From an uncultured Alphaproteobacteria bacterium (lineage in GTDB: Bacteria; Pseudomonadota; Alphaproteobacteria; HIMB59), in NCBI GenBank assembly GCA_902546975.1, contig CACCLU010000003.1, positions 208,492 through 272,491 of the forward strand: a stretch of 64,000 nucleotides of DNA. The letters are read 5' to 3'. This document shows, one piece after another, positions 43,555-50,322 of this stretch (position 1 is the stretch's first letter; each line of letters begins with the position of its first letter). The notes below the pieces were generated by a model. That model worked only from the letters and a program-made list of their open reading frames with translations. It had not been told where the DNA came from and did no database searches. Both the position numbers and the translations under genes were made by a program.

Positions 43555-43564
43555 ATTTTTAGTC
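43549..43564. terminator. palindrome between convergent genes, possible bidirectional terminator
   Basis: GACTAAA TT TTTAGTC is a perfect inverted repeat that contains the stop codon of the rightward gene (43552-43554) and that of the leftward gene (43559-43561). The stem is A+T-rich and short, with T-runs on each side, so terminator activity is uncertain. Confidence 0.35.
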
Positions 43565-44677
43565 TAAATTTTTAAAACCGTAACCTGTTTTTTTTACTCT
43601 TGTTTTAAAATAACTCTTATTAAATTTGTTAATTGTAGGTTTTGTATTTATTTGCTTGGCAATTTTAATACCAGCTTTTTTAAGAGAAGAGACTTTTGTA
43701 AAATTATTTGTGATAATATTGACTTTATTTACTTTTAATAACTTAAGTATCTTAGCGGCAATATTAAAATCTCTTTCATCATCTAAAAAACCTATGTTGT
43801 GATCAGCATCAATAGTATCTAAGCCTTTTGACTGAAGAGAATATGCCCTCATTTTATTGGCTAGTCCTATACCTCTCCCTTCTTGATCTAAATAAAGGAT
43901 AATACCTCCTTTATTTTTAACCATATAGTTTAAAGAGTTATTTAATTGTTCTCCACAATCGCATTTTCTAGAGTGAAATATATCCCCAGTAAAACAAGCT
44001 GAGTGAATTCTAAGATTTGTTGGTTGTTTTAAATTTTTTGGTTTAATTATGATCGCGATATGTCTTCTAGCACCAATATATGACTTAAAAATATTAAATG
44101 TAGTAGATGCAACATTTGGTAAGGGCACATTTGCACTTGAAACTAATCTGATACTATTAGTTATAAATTTATTCTGATTTTTTAACTCTTTATGGTTAAA
44201 TCTTAATAGACCAAGTTGTAATATTAAATTATCAATATTTTTATAGTATTTAGAATTAATTTTTTTAAATACAAGTGATGGTATTACCTTCGCATTTTTA
44301 GCTATATCTAAACAGACATTATGGAAGTCTTTACTTTTGATATAAGGCTCATCTTTAAATAATATTTTATTTTGATCAGATAAAGGGTTAATAAATAAAC
44401 TTAATAAAGATTTGTTTGATATTTTTTCATTTATTTTTAAATAAATATTTGTTGATACTTTATCTTCAAATATTGATTTTGCTTTTTGTTTTGTGATTAA
44501 AAGATATTTGTCTTTTTGTAGGTATTGATTAAATTGATTTAAAATTTTATTGTCCGAATGTTCAATATTAAAGAACATCCAATAATTTTTATTTTCTTTG
44601 ATAACTATTGGTCTTCCGGTTCTAAGCTCATTGATAGCTCTATCAATAAATGTGCCAAAATTTGATTTTAAACTCAT
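43559..44677 (-). CDS. GTP cyclohydrolase II with degenerate N-terminal domain
   Basis: The C-terminal half (about 180-372) is an intact GTP cyclohydrolase II that opens GTP to 2,5-diamino-6-ribosylamino-pyrimidinone phosphate. It has zinc ligands Cys228, Cys239 and Cys241, DQEGRGIGL at 264-272, and DADHNIGFLDDERDF at 290-304. The N-terminal 170 residues start like DHBP synthase (INELRTGRPIVI) but lack its acidic active-site pattern, as in other alphaproteobacterial long forms. It lies at the end of a block of pterin/pyrimidine-type genes, divergent from the RibD-like reductase, so it may serve a pathway other than riboflavin. Confidence 0.82.
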   Translation of the reverse strand: MSLKSNFGTFIDRAINELRTGRPIVIKENKNYWMFFNIEHSDNKILNQFNQYLQKDKYLLITKQKAKSIFEDKVSTNIYLKINEKISNKSLLSLFINPLSDQNKILFKDEPYIKSKDFHNVCLDIAKNAKVIPSLVFKKINSKYYKNIDNLILQLGLLRFNHKELKNQNKFITNSIRLVSSANVPLPNVASTTFNIFKSYIGARRHIAIIIKPKNLKQPTNLRIHSACFTGDIFHSRKCDCGEQLNNSLNYMVKNKGGIILYLDQEGRGIGLANKMRAYSLQSKGLDTIDADHNIGFLDDERDFNIAAKILKLLKVNKVNIITNNFTKVSSLKKAGIKIAKQINTKPTINKFNKSYFKTRVKKTGYGFKNLD

Positions 44678-44718
44678 AGACTATATATATACTCAATAGT
44701 ACTTGATACAGATGAAAA

Positions 44719-45549
44719 ATGATAACAAAGCATAATATTTCTTCATTATTTGAATTTGTAAAAAAACAAAAAAAATCAAATATCTTAAGAATTGATTTAA
44801 TTAACAAATCGTTTGTACTTAGTCAACATTCTAAAACCAATCATATTTTAATTGATAAAAATGGCGTTAATTTTAATTGTAAGATTGAAAAAAAAATAAA
44901 TGAAATAGCACAAATTTTATTACCAATATTGATGATAAAAAAAAAATTCTATATCGGGCAAATTGGGCAAAGCTTAGACGGTAAAATTGCACTTTTAAAC
45001 GGCAATTCTCATTACATTAATGATAAAAATAGTATTTCATACCTTCATAGCCTTCGTTCAGTGTGTGATGCAGTTATAGTTGGTGTAAATACAATAAAAA
45101 AAGATAATCCCTTGCTCACTACAAGAGCAATTAAAGGCTCAAATCCTCAGAGGATAATTATAGATCCGTCTCTAAAATTAACAAATAACTATCAAATATT
45201 TAAAGATGGTTTTTCAAATATCATATTTACACACTCTAATATTAAAAAGAATTTAAATAATACACAAATTTATAAATTACCTGAAAGGAATTTCACAAAT
45301 CTAATATACAAACATATAAATAATTTAGGTTTTAAGTTTGTATTAGTAGAAGGTGGTTCTAAAACTATATCTAAATTTCTTGAGAATAAATTATTAGATA
45401 TTATGCAATTTATAATATCACCTACAATTATTGGTTCTGGTATTAATTCTATAAATATAAAACCTATAACAAATTTAAAAAAAGTTATTAGAACAAAAAA
45501 TAAAATTTATAAATTTGGCGAAGAAATGATAGTAAGTTTAGAGTTTTAA
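44719..45549 (+). CDS. stand-alone RibD reductase-domain protein
   Basis: The 276-residue protein has the NADPH-dependent reductase domain of RibD (RibD_C): IGQIGQSLDGKIAL, SLRSVCDAVIVGVNTIKKDNPLLTTR and LVEGGSKTI. The N-terminal 75 residues do not form the zinc cytidine-deaminase-like domain, as HxE and PCxxC are absent. The substrate would be the ribosylamino-pyrimidine made by GTP cyclohydrolase II, which lies divergently 41 bases away. It overlaps the convergent methyltransferase by 12 bases. Confidence 0.78.
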   Translation: MITKHNISSLFEFVKKQKKSNILRIDLINKSFVLSQHSKTNHILIDKNGVNFNCKIEKKINEIAQILLPILMIKKKFYIGQIGQSLDGKIALLNGNSHYINDKNSISYLHSLRSVCDAVIVGVNTIKKDNPLLTTRAIKGSNPQRIIIDPSLKLTNNYQIFKDGFSNIIFTHSNIKKNLNNTQIYKLPERNFTNLIYKHINNLGFKFVLVEGGSKTISKFLENKLLDIMQFIISPTIIGSGINSINIKPITNLKKVIRTKNKIYKFGEEMIVSLEF

Positions 45550-46326
45550 AGCTAAAAAATCTTTATTTCTTAGAAATAATTTTGATTTATTTTTTTTAAT
45601 ATTTACCCTTCTAAAATCTAACCATCTATCTAATGATATCTTATTTTTTTCAAGTACATTTTCACAAAAATCTAAAAACATATTTTGAAATTTTTTATTC
45701 TTTGATACATCCCAACTTGAGTCAAAAACAAATGTTTTGTGTGACTGAGAAAACAATTTATTAATTATTTGACTACAGTTTTTACCAACTGCTTTTTGCC
45801 CAATACCTTTATCTGACTCCTGATCTTTATTAAATAAATTTAAAACGTATTGATCATCTTTATGTTTTGGGTGAAATTTAAAAAATCCATCATAATTAAT
45901 TGAAAAATATATAACTTTTGTATTTAGATTTTGTTTTTTAAATCCTAAATACCAATTTTTTGGCATTATATCTAAATACGCAGATCCTGTAATAATATCG
46001 TATTTTTCGAATTTAAAATTTTTTATATTTTTGATTAAATCAAATTTTTTATAATTTATATTTATAATTTTATTTTTATTATTTGTCTTTTTCTTAAATT
46101 CTTTAATTGACTCAAATGATATGTCTATCATATCCCATGATTGCCTTTTTTTAAGTTTAGGGTACAAAAATCTATAGTTGGAACCTGTTCCACAACCTAA
46201 ATCAGCGATAGACAATATTTTGTAGTCTTGAAAATATTTATTAATTTTTTCTATAATTTTTTTATTTCTTGAAACTTTATCAATTTTCTCTCGAAGAAAT
46301 AGCCAATCATTATTAAATTTATGCAT
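45538..46326 (-). CDS. class I SAM-dependent methyltransferase
   Basis: The 262-residue protein has the SAM-binding motif IADLGCGTGSN near residue 40-50, followed by MIDISFES as the acidic second strand and a YDIITGSAYLD post-II region. No close family can be named. The gene overlaps the glycosyltransferase gene upstream by eight bases, so the two are expressed together. A role in methylating the product of this gene block is inferred from position. Confidence 0.7.
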   Translation of the reverse strand: MHKFNNDWLFLREKIDKVSRNKKIIEKINKYFQDYKILSIADLGCGTGSNYRFLYPKLKKRQSWDMIDISFESIKEFKKKTNNKNKIININYKKFDLIKNIKNFKFEKYDIITGSAYLDIMPKNWYLGFKKQNLNTKVIYFSINYDGFFKFHPKHKDDQYVLNLFNKDQESDKGIGQKAVGKNCSQIINKLFSQSHKTFVFDSSWDVSKNKKFQNMFLDFCENVLEKNKISLDRWLDFRRVNIKKNKSKLFLRNKDFLALKL

Positions 46327-47362
46327 CTTTTATTATCTTGATAAAAAGATCCCCAGATTGTATTGGTGTTAAAAATTTTCTCTTATTTTGTGATAATTTT
46401 TTTGATAAATCTGAATTAAATGCATTTTTAGTAATTAATTTTGATAAGCTTTTTTCTTTGAAATTATTTAAGTAGATAATTCCATCCTTTTTTAGAGTAT
46501 TCATAATTGTTTTAGTTTTATATGTAATAATCATTTTTTTGAGTTGAAGGGCATTAGCAAGTGACATACCAAAACCTTCATATTTACTTACTGAGACATA
46601 GAAGTCACACTTAGAATATAGTTTTGATAATAAATTAGTCGATACATTACTATAAAACTTAACTTTTTTGCTTAATCCATAATTACTTATAATTTTTAGT
46701 AATCTATTATAGTATTTACTCTCTCTAGTTATATCTCCTACAATATTTAATTTTATTTTATCCATGTATCTTAATTCGTTTAACAGATAATGATAATTTT
46801 TTCTCTCAATAATACTTCCTACAGATAGTAAATTTATATTTTTATCCTTTTTTAATTTATATTTTTTTAATTTTTCTATTCCAGGCTCTACAACTTGAAT
46901 TTTTCGCTTATTAATTTTAAATTTTTCAAAAATTAGTTGTTTTGTATCATTTGAAGTGACAATTATTTTTTTCGTTTTCTTATATAATTTTTTAGCTTTC
47001 TTAAGAAAAAATAGACTTTGATTACCATTAAATTCTAGATAAAGAGGGTGGTGTATAAGAGCTATTACTACAAATCTATCTAAATAGTTTATTAAACTAT
47101 CAATACACTCAAAAACTAATCCATCAATAATTAGTACTGCATTATCAGGTAATTTTTCTAAAGTTTTTTTAAGGTTTTTTAAGTCATTTTCTTTAGGAAA
47201 GGGAAAGCTGTTAGCAAGTTTGATAGCATTTAAATTAAATTTAATTTTTTTTGCTCTTTTTAATATATTTTTTTCATAAATGTAACCGCCTGTTTTTGTA
47301 TTAATATCACCCGGATAAATAAAATAATAAGATTTATTGTGTATTAATGATCTCTTGTTCAT
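46319..47362 (-). CDS. GT4-type glycosyltransferase
   Basis: The 347-residue protein has a GT-B fold layout. The C-terminal half carries LLSVGSIIERKNYHYLL, a typical GT4 nucleotide-sugar segment, and SKYEGFGMSLANAL; the second Glu of the E-x7-E motif is not conserved. The N-terminal half starts YFIYPGDINTKTGGYIY, in place of the usual GGxERx loop. It starts 29 bases inside the synthase-like gene, so coupled. The acceptor is unknown, and membrane segments are absent. Confidence 0.75.
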   Translation of the reverse strand: MNKRSLIHNKSYYFIYPGDINTKTGGYIYEKNILKRAKKIKFNLNAIKLANSFPFPKENDLKNLKKTLEKLPDNAVLIIDGLVFECIDSLINYLDRFVVIALIHHPLYLEFNGNQSLFFLKKAKKLYKKTKKIIVTSNDTKQLIFEKFKINKRKIQVVEPGIEKLKKYKLKKDKNINLLSVGSIIERKNYHYLLNELRYMDKIKLNIVGDITRESKYYNRLLKIISNYGLSKKVKFYSNVSTNLLSKLYSKCDFYVSVSKYEGFGMSLANALQLKKMIITYKTKTIMNTLKKDGIIYLNNFKEKSLSKLITKNAFNSDLSKKLSQNKRKFLTPIQSGDLFIKIIKDA

Positions 47363-47741
47363 AAGAAGCCCAAGCTACATTTGACTCAGTTAAAATAATT
47401 TTTATTTTATGCAACTTGTTAAAATCTTCTATGTAATCTTTTTGTAATTTATCGCATATTCTATCAAAAATATCTTTAGCAAGAAATTCCGTAGAGGTAA
47501 TTATATTTTTAAATTCTTCAACTTCGTCTAAATTTTTATAACTATAAAATTTTAATACGTCTGAGAGAATTTCTGTTACAACTCCGAGATCCATAATAAT
47601 GTTATATTTGTTAATCTTTTTTGCATAAAACTCAGCATCAACTATGTAGGTCGCTCCATGCATATTCTGTGCTGGTCCAAAAACCTCACCCGGGAGAGAA
47701 TGTGCAATTAAAATATTATTTCGAACAGTAATTGAATACAT
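47334..47741 (-). CDS. 6-pyruvoyl-tetrahydropterin synthase/QueD homologue with altered active site
   Basis: The 135-residue protein keeps the family outline: AHSLPG with the first His (His14), NMHGATYIVDAEF, and the C-terminal ESNVAWASYE glutamate. But compared with QueD, the catalytic Cys four residues before HGH is Ala24, the third zinc His of HGH is Ala30, and the LDH dyad segment reads KFYSYKNLDE. Canonical 6-carboxytetrahydropterin synthesis is therefore unlikely. It lies one base after the dehydrogenase gene, with which it is probably co-translated. Confidence 0.72.
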   Translation of the reverse strand: MYSITVRNNILIAHSLPGEVFGPAQNMHGATYIVDAEFYAKKINKYNIIMDLGVVTEILSDVLKFYSYKNLDEVEEFKNIITSTEFLAKDIFDRICDKLQKDYIEDFNKLHKIKIILTESNVAWASYEQEIINTQ

Positions 47742-47742
47742 T

Positions 47743-48705
47743 TTAATACTTTATAGCATGCATTATGCTTTCTGGATTATTTAATATTGAAATATAATCT
47801 TTCTCTAGATCCTTAAAGTCACTTTCAGTGTTTATTAATTTAAGAAGTTGGTTATTAGATAAAGCATTAATTGCTAAATTCAATCTCTTTTTATAATCAT
47901 ATTTTTTTGATAAATATTCTGGAATATTTGAAACTTGAGAACCAATAATTTTTAATCTCTTTGAGTGAAAATTACCTCCTAAATTTATATGACCTTTTCT
48001 ATTTCCATACCAACTAGCCTCAATAAATTTTCCCTCTAAATTTAATTTTTTTAGTGATTGGTTTAATACATCATAATTAGATGTTGTATTAATTATAACA
48101 TCTAAATCTTTAATTTTTTTAAAATTAATAAATTTTAGTCCTAAAATATTAGCAAATTTCTTCTTTTTAATATTTATGTCAGTAATAAAGACATTATTAA
48201 ACTTTAGTAATTTATAATAGTAGGCAGTTAAAATACCAACAGAGCCCATCCCTATTATCAATATTTTGTTATTTAATTTTGCTTGAGTATCCCAAAAGAT
48301 ATTAATAGCTGTTTCCATATTTGCTGTTAGTAAATATTTTCGAATATCACCATTACCTCTTAAAATATTCACATTATTTATATCAATCTTAAATAGTGAC
48401 TGATGAGGGTAAAGGCAGAATGTATTTTTATTTAAATATTTTTTTGGGCCCTCAACTATTTTACCAACATTAATGTAACCGTATTTAATTGGAAAAGAAA
48501 AAGATCCCTCTTGAAAAGGAGATTTCATTATATCGAACTGATCTTTGCTAATATTACCAGATGCTACTAATCTCTCAGTACCCTTACTAATTCCTGAATA
48601 AAGAGTTTTTACAAGAACAGTTTTATAATTTTTTTTATAGCTTAGTATTTTTTTCTTAATAATTGGTTTATTTTCATTCTTAAGCCATAGAGAATATGTT
48701 TCCAT
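47743..48705 (-). CDS. MDR-superfamily dehydrogenase, BchC-like, without catalytic Cys
   Basis: The 320-residue protein has a GroES-like start (LVKTLYSGISKGTERLV) and a Rossmann domain (LIIGMGSVGILTAYYY). The SGIS-GTE segment is that seen in BchC-like members rather than the CGTD of zinc alcohol dehydrogenases, so the first catalytic Cys is missing. ATG 48705 gives the usual N-terminus; GTG 48732 would add nine residues. It starts 29 bases from the divergent creatininase-like gene, so a shared regulatory region is likely. Confidence 0.72.
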   Translation of the reverse strand: METYSLWLKNENKPIIKKKILSYKKNYKTVLVKTLYSGISKGTERLVASGNISKDQFDIMKSPFQEGSFSFPIKYGYINVGKIVEGPKKYLNKNTFCLYPHQSLFKIDINNVNILRGNGDIRKYLLTANMETAINIFWDTQAKLNNKILIIGMGSVGILTAYYYKLLKFNNVFITDINIKKKKFANILGLKFINFKKIKDLDVIINTTSNYDVLNQSLKKLNLEGKFIEASWYGNRKGHINLGGNFHSKRLKIIGSQVSNIPEYLSKKYDYKKRLNLAINALSNNQLLKLINTESDFKDLEKDYISILNNPESIMHAIKY

Positions 48706-48734
48706 AATAATTATATAAATGTTAAATATCACTT

Positions 48735-49493
48735 ATGCTATCAAAGTTTTGGTCCGATTTAACATCAGCAGATATTAGTAAATTAGGTAAAAATAAAATA
48801 CTTATTCTCCCATTTTCATCTGTAGAACAACATGGAGAACACCTTCCATCAGGTACTGATAAATTGATATTAGATGGAATTTTAAATACTTTTGTTAAGA
48901 AATATCCCAAAGTTAATAAATATTTAATTCTACCAAATATCTCTATAGGTTCAGCGAGTGAGCATAATAGCTTTGAGGGCACTCTATCTTCGAACTCTTC
49001 AAATTATATTGATTATATTATCAGCATAGTTGGCGAGTTATGTATTCGTAGATATAAAAAATTTATCTTTTTAAATAGTCATGGCGGACAAATTAGTCAC
49101 TTAGATATAGCTGCCAAAGAAATTAAAAGTAGATATAAAGCTGTCGATATTGTTAAGGCACATTATTTTTTATTTAATGGTTTTGAAAAAATTATTCCAA
49201 AAAAGGAATTACTTTATGGATATCATGGAGGTGAATTTGAAACATCAATAATGCTCTACCTTTATCCAGAATTGATAAAATTAAATAAAATTAAAAGAAA
49301 CAAACTCTCATCTGACTTTAAATCTAAAAAAATAATTTCTTATGAAAGAAAAATTAAAAGAGCTTGGAATACAAAAGATTTGTCCAAGACAGGTATAATT
49401 GGCAATCCTACAAAATCCTCTGCAGATAAAGGAAAAAGAATTCTAGATCTTACATCAAGAACCTTAAAAAAAATAATTGATGAAATGAAGTAG
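48735..49493 (+). CDS. creatininase-family amidohydrolase
   Basis: The 252-residue protein carries the metal ligands of the family: SSVEQHGEHLPSGTD (Glu31, His33, Asp42), NSHGGQ and YHGGEFETS. The family includes creatininase, the mycofactocin peptidase MftE, and the archaeal formamide hydrolase ArfB, which removes formyl from a GTP-derived pyrimidine. Next to a GTP cyclohydrolase II, the last is an attractive comparison. Its TAG stop overlaps the first two bases of the tRNA-Cys repeat. Confidence 0.75.
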   Translation: MLSKFWSDLTSADISKLGKNKILILPFSSVEQHGEHLPSGTDKLILDGILNTFVKKYPKVNKYLILPNISIGSASEHNSFEGTLSSNSSNYIDYIISIVGELCIRRYKKFIFLNSHGGQISHLDIAAKEIKSRYKAVDIVKAHYFLFNGFEKIIPKKELLYGYHGGEFETSIMLYLYPELIKLNKIKRNKLSSDFKSKKIISYERKIKRAWNTKDLSKTGIIGNPTKSSADKGKRILDLTSRTLKKIIDEMK

Positions 49494-49567: not shown

Positions 49568-49845
49568 TCATGGCACCATTTACCTCTTTAATTCTCAATC
49601 CTGTCGCAATTCTATCGCACTTGGAAGGGGGCACGACTCCTTAGAAGTAATTCCTTATCAGTTATTGTATTTTACCATACTGGATCTTCTTTATGGAAGG
49701 GCTCTTGTTTTAATTCTTTGAATTTGCGGGAATGTGGGAACGTTTTTCGCGCTCAGTGTTTTCTCGGGTTTATTCGGGAATTTCTCGGAGCGGAGGTAGG
49801 TTTTAGTTGGTTTACCCGTGCCCCCCTGAGGTGTATTATTCTCAA
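49564..49845. other. gene-free G+C-richer stretch
   Basis: No credible reading frame. The base composition changes visibly: the part 49725-49840 is full of G and C, unlike anything else in the window. Short motifs recur (GGGAA at several places, CGGGAAT near 49727 and 49772, TCGCA twice near 49603 and 49615). It could hold recombinase arm sites, a small RNA, or decayed foreign coding sequence. Confidence 0.4.
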
Positions 49846-50322
49846 ATGCCCTTTGTGAGTCTTTGGCCAACTTATTACAAACAAGAAGAAAAAGAACCTC
49901 TAGAGAAATTGTTATTACTTTACAAAGAAGCCAATGAAACTTTCGATGGATCTATAATGATTAAACATTTAGCGCACGATGTAACCTATGGAAGTCAAGA
50001 TGCTGGTTCTGATATTGAAGGATTGGAAGATGTTGCTAGATATATTGTCGAAAGATTTCATTTTTTTGGTCAATACAAAGAAACTAAACCCAGAATTCTA
50101 TCTAAAGGCTATGCGCCTCATAACAAACCTTGTCTTGTGATAAATCTAGATGGAATAAATGACTGTTATGTAGAAATTAAGGTCAATGAACTTCATAAAA
50201 TTACAAAAATTTTTACAACAACAATTAAACCATTAGTTGATGAGGTTAAAATTGTAAATAAATTTGACAGTGAAATTCCTGATGAAGATGCTGATTTAAG
50301 AGAAGCATATCTATATGGTTAA
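49846..50322 (+). CDS. NTF2-like fold protein, tentative
   Basis: The 158-residue product has a pattern that suggests a SnoaL/NTF2-like alpha+beta barrel: helical LEKLLLLYKEANETFDG, HLAHDVTYGSQDAGSDIEGLEDVARYI, then alternating beta strands. I cannot name a family, and catalytic residues are not clear. I chose ATG 49846; a TTG at 49807 would extend it into the G+C-rich stretch. It has an acidic end (EDADLREA). Confidence 0.5.
   Translation: MPFVSLWPTYYKQEEKEPLEKLLLLYKEANETFDGSIMIKHLAHDVTYGSQDAGSDIEGLEDVARYIVERFHFFGQYKETKPRILSKGYAPHNKPCLVINLDGINDCYVEIKVNELHKITKIFTTTIKPLVDEVKIVNKFDSEIPDEDADLREAYLYG

Follow-up and report, generated by a model that had tools for sequence, protein, structure and literature searches.

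Several described systems resemble, each in part, the block of seven genes treated here, which lies at positions 43559-49493 of a 64,000-nucleotide window (positions 208,492 to 272,491 of contig CACCLU010000003.1, assembly GCA_902546975.1) from an uncultured alphaproteobacterium of the HIMB59 lineage. Toxoflavin biosynthesis (tox genes) likewise starts with GTP cyclohydrolase II and uses a methyltransferase, but the tox genes are not known to include PTPS (pyruvoyl-tetrahydropterin synthase)-like, BchC-like, glycosyltransferase, or lipid genes. SCO6650 of Streptomyces coelicolor, which has a solved structure (3d7j), is a close relative of the PTPS-like protein of the window over nearly its full length (residues 1-129, E = 3.2e-34). 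Spoonamore et al. are said to have found, in 2006 and 2008, that SCO6650 is without zinc and the catalytic triad and keeps pterin-like binding. In 2006 they reportedly also showed that SCO6655, one of the S. coelicolor GTP cyclohydrolase II paralogues, has Met in place of Tyr and stops at the formylated compound. This work reportedly treated single proteins and gave no product; SCO6655 also appears in a published expression table. PTPS-I to PTPS-VI of COG0720 have the same T-fold, the fold family to which the window protein also belongs, and the function of PTPS-V is given as unclear (PMC5041015).

Three further comparisons concern the partners of the PTPS-like protein. BrbF (Sinorhizobium meliloti SMc02977), also of the creatininase family, is an AFRPP formamidase, a bacterial riboflavin formamidase, and performs the deformylation proposed here; however, it serves riboflavin, and the available part of the paper, whose authors did not find the enzyme making the formylated compound, has no mention of the cluster gene set (PMC9478397). 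Archaeal and fungal RIB7-type reductases (2azn and yeast RIB7) are, like those of the cluster, without the lysine of bacterial RibD and would likewise be expected to take a 2-amino substrate, but they carry Asn or Thr at that position (PMC3631187) and serve riboflavin, whereas the cluster enzymes carry mostly Gln or His. Inositol-lipid clusters of Bacteroidetes combine in one neighbourhood a CDP-alcohol phosphatidyltransferase and a lysylphosphatidylglycerol-synthase homologue, that is, a transferase with the same motif and a flippase-like protein as found in relatives of the window cluster, but their head group is inositol, and RibA, RibD, and PTPS genes go unmentioned in the available part of that source (PMC9246714).

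The seven genes are one conserved system, and the set is read as a pathway assembled from known enzyme families, of the kind that starts from GTP cyclohydrolase II. Literature searches, with most subscription papers outside their scope, returned no description of the whole set, nor of its cross-phylum distribution, the lysine replacement in the reductase, the association of creatininase with loss of Tyr105, or the lipid genes. Neither RibA nor glycosyltransferase nor creatininase occurs as a term in the text of the AGeNNT paper, which treats gene neighbourhoods of PTPS (PMC5445326). To the first-pass annotation, the block looked like an undescribed pathway; it is not entirely so, since the S. 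coelicolor PTPS-like member, SCO6650, has a solved structure.

Conservation was followed from the PTPS-like protein. A search of 190 genomes from the same class returned 25 matches, of which 23 (own included) had E < 1e-24 and two were weak, and the 22 strong loci other than the window's own were used for neighbourhood comparison. BchC-like, PTPS-like, glycosyltransferase, and methyltransferase genes stand together in 20 of the 22, the remaining two ending at contig ends, and the methyltransferase adjoins the glycosyltransferase in 20 of 22. Identity to the window PTPS-like protein in the 23-member alignment is 37-46%, with one member at 69%. Scanning a genome collection with this alignment confirmed at least 585 relatives; 80 named loci among the matches listed were added to the 22 class loci to give 102 loci, in which partner families were clustered from gene calls. 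Within 8 kb of the PTPS-like gene, the BchC-like gene was present in 96 of these, the glycosyltransferase in 94, the methyltransferase in 75, RibA in 65, creatininase in 57, and RibD_C in 54, and all seven genes were present in 21. Many loci are from Streptomyces or are near-identical marine records, and the loci were therefore dereplicated at 80% PTPS identity to 46, of which 37, those flanked by 7 kb on each side, were kept. Among these 37, BchC-like (36), glycosyltransferase (35), methyltransferase (35), and RibD_C (31) genes are near-constant or frequent neighbours, followed by RibA (18) and creatininase (9). No partner was found at three control PTPS-family loci (the two weak class matches and E. 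coli queD) or in the rest of the window beyond the block, and chance co-occurrence was rejected on these grounds.

Hosts of the set include Alphaproteobacteria, Kushneria, Larsenimonas, Marinobacter, a Wenzhouxiangellaceae bin, a Burkholderiaceae bin, Actinomycetota, and a Catalimonadaceae genome (Bacteroidota). Among the matches listed, the nearest relatives are uncultured Alphaproteobacteria, apparently single cells, followed by Pelagibacterales and Pelagibacteraceae, and many Streptomyces carry the set; Streptomyces is also the source of the partnerless PTPS-like copies L077, L097, L127, and L229. A single co-conserved set, as first proposed, is upheld by recurrence of the core across phyla in the 37 dereplicated loci. 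The first-pass annotation had placed similar sets in other alphaproteobacteria, where they were indeed found, but their range is wider and takes in several phyla.

Table 1. Genes of the block, with window positions, strand, and family match
Product	Length (amino acids)	Position	Strand	Family match
RibA-like GTP cyclohydrolase II	372	43559..44677	-	PF00925, 162 bits
Stand-alone RibD_C reductase, without deaminase domain	276	44719..45549	+	PF01872, 98 bits
Class I SAM (S-adenosylmethionine) methyltransferase	262	45538..46326	-	PF13649, 31 bits (cut-off 27)
GT4-type glycosyltransferase	347	46319..47362	-	PF00534, 84 bits
PTPS-like T-fold protein	135	47334..47741	-	PF01242, 75 bits
BchC-like medium-chain dehydrogenase	329	47743..48732	-	TIGR01202, 49.7 bits (cut-off 291)
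Creatininase-family hydrolase	252	48735..49493	+	PF02633, 181 bits

All seven open reading frames are intact, and both their positions and the family names proposed for them at first sight agree with the Pfam and NCBIfam scans of window proteins from which the names in Table 1 are taken. Four genes had been described as one overlapping leftward run, which applies to those for the methyltransferase, glycosyltransferase, and PTPS-like protein; the PTPS-like and BchC-like genes are spaced by one base. RibA is encoded on the same strand as this run, and the reductase and creatininase on the other. The label BchC-like stands only for a distant relationship, since a TIGR01202 score so far under the cut-off indicates a dehydrogenase related to BchC and not BchC itself. 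In comparison with five relatives (where the gene is present), dN/dS ranges from 0.02 to 0.48, with one value undefined. Downstream, a 171-amino-acid open reading frame (49807-50322) has no Pfam or NCBIfam match.

The reductase bears on the question of the substrate. PF01872 alone was found in it (residues 81-270), the N-terminal deaminase domain being absent. In E. coli RibD, Lys152 recognises the C2 oxygen of the deaminated substrate and favours that substrate, and the T35K change in yeast RIB7 reverses substrate preference (PMC3631187). Among 55 cluster reductases (the window and 54 loci, not dereplicated), the Lys152 position holds Gln in 38, as in the window, His in 12, Ser in 4, Leu in 1, and Lys in none, while the lysine is kept in E. 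coli RibD and in the RibD encoded elsewhere in the same genome. The solved structures closest to the window reductase are the bifunctional RibDs 2hxv and 9no2, followed by 6p8c and MjRED 2azn, which are 2,5-diamino-type reductases. With the selecting lysine absent, we expect the cluster reductase to work on a substrate that still has its 2-amino group, the ribosyl chain of which it is predicted to reduce. Reduction before loss of the 2-amino group had been suggested at first sight, and the absence of the selecting lysine from all 55 enzymes supports it. The genome holds a third RibD_C-family gene (G000:C3:185086-185523, a 180-amino-acid frame scoring 31 bits).

The window RibA keeps the zinc cysteines (Cys54, 65, and 67), Tyr105, and Arg128 (E. 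coli numbering) and likely makes 2,5-diamino-6-ribosylamino-pyrimidinone 5'-phosphate from GTP. The zinc cysteines and Arg128 are kept in all 66 cluster RibAs (the window and 65 loci), but the Tyr105 position is occupied by Met (32), Tyr (28), His (5), or Gln (1). A creatininase gene is nearby in 38/38 loci with a non-Tyr105 RibA versus 15/27 loci with Tyr and, after dereplication, in 4/4 versus 4/15 (19 loci; Fisher p = 0.018). The window and its relatives are exceptions, in which a Tyr105 RibA stands alongside creatininase. In alignments with 3lub and 3a6g, the creatininase conserves the E-x-H, D, S/N-x-H, and E-T-S stretches of the metal site. It is the only PF02633 gene found in its genome and is predicted to be a formamide hydrolase like BrbF. 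The N-terminal half of RibA (∼170 amino acids) has no Pfam match; a full-length NF006456 match below the cut-off (275/464 bits) suggests a two-part architecture common to other RibAs.

Residues of the PTPS-like protein point away from the chemistry of its namesake and towards retention of a binding site. In all 23 members, QueD Cys27 and His33 are replaced by Ala and His71 by Tyr or Phe, and Asp70 is retained in only four, while His16, His31, and Glu110 are retained in 23/23. We take Glu110 to be the substrate-binding glutamate and Cys27, His33, and His71 to be residues of PTPS/QueD chemistry. The window subfamily has the motif GPAQxLHGAT, and the signatures CxxxHGH, CxxxxxHGH, and ExxHGH of PTPS-I (QueD), PTPS-II, and PTPS-III, which go with a Cys-Asp-His triad and three zinc histidines, are absent from it; assignment as QueD was rejected because the signature is gone. 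The protein is predicted to be a binder of a pterin or 2-aminopyrimidinone, and the residue pattern agrees with the account of SCO6650 given above. Among the matches listed, 9 of 15 plasmid copies (H1-H15) are annotated as 6-carboxytetrahydropterin synthase, and a queuosine term occurs in three such plasmid records (L229, L230, and L231), although the family has lost the QueD residues.

In the BchC-like dehydrogenase, Asp185 is invariant in 21/21 sequences. The solved fold that best fits its model (pLDDT 89.3) is L-idonate 5-dehydrogenase, and iditol, xylitol, arabinitol, and sorbitol dehydrogenases also rank near the top, although nearly tied with other medium-chain dehydrogenases, which gives a weak lean towards polyol dehydrogenases. 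The enzyme is predicted to use NAD in oxidising a secondary alcohol on the ribityl side chain. For the GT4-type glycosyltransferase, the first Glu of the EX7E motif is present in 22/22 sequences, and the second position is Glu in 17, Asp in 3, and Asn in 2, the window being among those with Asn. Large membrane glycosyltransferases were also seen beside the core, at L102:7011-8915 (GT2 type) and L232:6098-8011 (annotated mdoH), and the family of the former is present in eight loci.

Many relatives carry additional genes of lipid head-group metabolism, and the product may therefore be a lipid in those lineages. A CDP-alcohol phosphatidyltransferase gene is near the PTPS-like gene in 60/102 loci (18/37 dereplicated), with the motif Dx2DGx2AR...Gx3Dx3D in 59/60; seven aligned transferases show 35-44% identity to the first. 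For two of them, the best NCBIfam match is PgsA (43.8 and 37.6 bits; cut-off 109); archaetidylinositol-phosphate synthase gives weaker matches (20.4 and 27.1 bits). Both PgsA and archaetidylinositol-phosphate synthase use phosphorylated polyols as acceptors. A flippase-like lysylphosphatidylglycerol-synthase transmembrane protein is encoded in 49/102 or 48/102 loci, depending on the query set, and in 12/37 after dereplication. Rarer partners in the 37 dereplicated loci are an FkbM methyltransferase (11), a sulfatase-like protein (9), YceI (8), and cytochrome b561 (7), and the recurrence of the last two hints at a membrane redox role. The cytochrome b561 loci are L035, L036, L042, L071, L073, L082, and L119, one of which also has YceI. 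In Peteryoungia desertarenae, the genes stand in the order sulfatase, flippase-like, FkbM, CDP-alcohol transferase, ribA, dehydrogenase, PTPS, and GT4, the row ending with methyltransferase, RibD, and cytochrome b; Thiodictyon has a shorter form of this row. On a Neorhizobium plasmid, the dehydrogenase, PTPS, and glycosyltransferase genes are accompanied by one for a membrane glycosyltransferase, in a stretch whose annotation shows no lipid gene. The CDP-alcohol transferase, the flippase-like gene, and the rarer partners are absent near the window cluster and from the 16 SAR11-like loci, some of which end at contig ends.

As regards riboflavin synthesis, an NrdR-like gene, ribD, ribE, ribBA, and ribH stand in a row elsewhere in the window's genome, followed by a gene that, by place only, we take to be nusB. 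The RibA half of this RibBA (L135:5367-6443, G000:C4) is without all three zinc cysteines, which are absent in 19/19 same-genus sequences compared (11 further sequences from family f2, which spans 30 loci, lay outside the comparison). Decay of this half after gain of the cluster RibA was considered and rejected, as the cysteines are missing from all 19, four of which are from genomes without a PTPS match. PF00925 has two matches in the genome, which is 94% complete, and no intact copy other than the window RibA was found. The first-pass annotation had counted against its reading a genome whose sole ribA and reductase lay in this block, if the remaining genes clustered with lipopolysaccharide synthesis in relatives; the RibA is the sole intact one found, but a second ribD, with ribE, ribBA, and ribH, exists elsewhere.

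PTPS is carried by 16 of 25 same-genus genomes, all 16 of which have the cluster RibA and only one of which (G212) has a second RibA. Among the nine same-genus genomes without a PTPS match, most of them incomplete, a different RibA was seen in four, a cluster-type fragment in one, and no RibA in the other four. In genus g2, of another family in the same order, all nine PTPS genomes carry a cluster-type RibA (a fragment in G221), and the same nine have a second, separate RibA in a 198-amino-acid frame. Taken with the pattern in the window lineage, this second RibA makes the cluster RibA look like a pathway enzyme that later became shared with riboflavin synthesis in the window's lineage. Relatives of RibB, RibE, and RibH were found within 9 kb of PTPS in 1/102 loci (L045) and a RibD deaminase domain in 0/102. 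As regards folate, FolE (PF01227) was not found in the window's genome, and FolE2 (PF02649) was absent from 40/40 genomes including the window's, a sample in which 15 genomes are without a PTPS match.

We tentatively propose, as a reading that falls a little short of an even chance, that the set makes a glycosylated and methylated pterin from GTP by way of a GTP cyclohydrolase II product that would keep its 2-amino group, and that in many lineages, although not in that of the window, this pterin would be joined to a membrane lipid. All steps are drawn from residues and gene content. RibA would open GTP to give 2,5-diamino-6-ribosylamino-pyrimidinone 5'-phosphate or, where the catalytic tyrosine is missing, would stop at a formylated compound, to be deformylated by the creatininase-like enzyme. 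The RibA of the window's genome is likely to serve riboflavin synthesis as well. The stand-alone RibD_C would then reduce C1' of the ribose with the 2-amino group present, as in archaea and fungi, and the BchC-like dehydrogenase would turn the hydroxyl at C2' of the ribityl chain into a ketone. The two steps, reduction at C1' and then oxidation at C2', would together yield the 1-deoxypentulose that arises in the Amadori rearrangement of GTP cyclohydrolase I, so that the 5-amino group could close the ring to a pterin resembling 7,8-dihydroneopterin-5'-phosphate without GTP cyclohydrolase I. The PTPS-like protein may guide ring closure or a side-chain step, and the glycosyltransferase and methyltransferase would decorate the product. 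Where present, the CDP-alcohol phosphatidyltransferase would link a diacylglycerol to the phosphorylated side chain, and a flippase-like protein would carry the resulting lipid across the membrane.

Several observations weigh against this proposal. The C2' oxidation and the ring closure are chemistry that we infer, and the polyol dehydrogenases that suggest the former have 10-18% identity to the BchC-like enzyme, a similarity at superfamily level, and are interleaved with uncharacterised medium-chain dehydrogenases, with alcohol dehydrogenases close behind. The dereplicated association of Tyr105 loss with creatininase is a small test, and a creatininase beside the window RibA, which has Tyr105, would be redundant. 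As the sole intact RibA found, that enzyme probably feeds riboflavin synthesis too. Four of the 102 PTPS loci are without every partner (L075, L077, L097, and L127), one of which, L075, begins 300 bases from a contig end and has >8 kb downstream without a detected glycosyltransferase, and an annotated Streptomyces plasmid copy (L229) stands alone. The lipid step cannot be general, because the window lineage has neither of the two lipid genes near the cluster: the CDP-alcohol transferase and the flippase-like gene are both missing there, PF03706 has no match in the window's genome, and none of the three PF01066 genes in that genome is a clear orthologue. An orthologue of the cluster CDP-alcohol transferase elsewhere in the genome was sought among these and rejected (34 bits, 27 bits, and no match to the cluster profile), and the three are probably housekeeping genes. 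RibA, lastly, is near PTPS in just 18 of the 37 dereplicated loci.

This last count is also what could be said for ordinary riboflavin genes lying by chance beside an unrelated polysaccharide or small-molecule cluster, the alternative offered by the first-pass annotation. It is contradicted by co-conservation across phyla, RibD_C being near the core in 31/37 dereplicated loci and having a family-specific change in its substrate site, and PTPS identities of 37-46% (one 69%) argue against one recent transfer; we regard it as having almost no likelihood. A variant riboflavin or flavin branch, with reductase-first riboflavin order or a modified flavin as the product, would account for the presence of two riboflavin enzymes, RibA and a RibD-type reductase, for the window RibA being the only intact one found, and for the riboflavin genes 7-9 kb from PTPS at L045. 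But that locus is one of 102, the deaminase is near PTPS in none, ribD-ribE-ribBA-ribH with a Lys-type RibD stands elsewhere in the genome, and the PTPS, glycosyltransferase, methyltransferase, and lipid genes would be left unexplained, so that such a branch seems improbable. Slightly further down the scale, and quite improbable, is synthesis of the pterin precursor of folate in place of GTP cyclohydrolase I, with the glycosyltransferase and methyltransferase belonging elsewhere. The failure to find FolE or FolE2 in the window's genome fits this idea, but FolE2 is missing equally from the 15 genomes without a PTPS match, and the glycosyltransferase and methyltransferase, each in 35/37 loci, are too constant for bystanders.

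The alternative closest to our proposal is that the product stays a monocyclic diaminopyrimidine, the ribitylamino-pyrimidine being glycosylated and methylated directly, the BchC-like enzyme working on whichever sugar the glycosyltransferase attaches, and the PTPS-like protein being no more than a binding or channelling subunit. All that the residues indicate is that a 2-amino-4-oxo ring is preferred, and a monocyclic pyrimidine has such a ring too; the glycosyltransferase, BchC-like, and PTPS genes form a tight core. A pterin, however, also suits a T-fold site in which the Glu is retained, and the characterised PTPS relatives act on bicyclic pterins. The position of the dehydrogenase gene 5' of PTPS in the core run is a weak hint that the enzyme acts before ring formation. 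We consider a monocyclic product unlikely, but the least unlikely of these alternatives.

Within the pterin proposal, the most far-reaching version is a new class of membrane lipid with a glycosylated, methylated pterin head group, made by a second natural pterin route in which the PTPS fold serves as cyclase and GTP cyclohydrolase II with a split-up Amadori rearrangement replaces GTP cyclohydrolase I. We know of no pterin lipid head group in any organism, and we hold this version to be rather unlikely. If true, a redox-active pterin lipid would occur in several phyla, sometimes with cytochrome b561 encoded beside it, and streamlined relatives such as that of the window would keep a soluble version.

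More broadly, if the proposed pathway is correct, it would be a widespread, unrecognised one that starts at the branch point of riboflavin synthesis and provides a second route to pterins. SCO6650 and SCO6655 would gain a role, and a GTP cyclohydrolase II whose reaction ends with the formylated product would be a candidate for the first enzyme, which the authors of the BrbF study did not find (PMC9478397).

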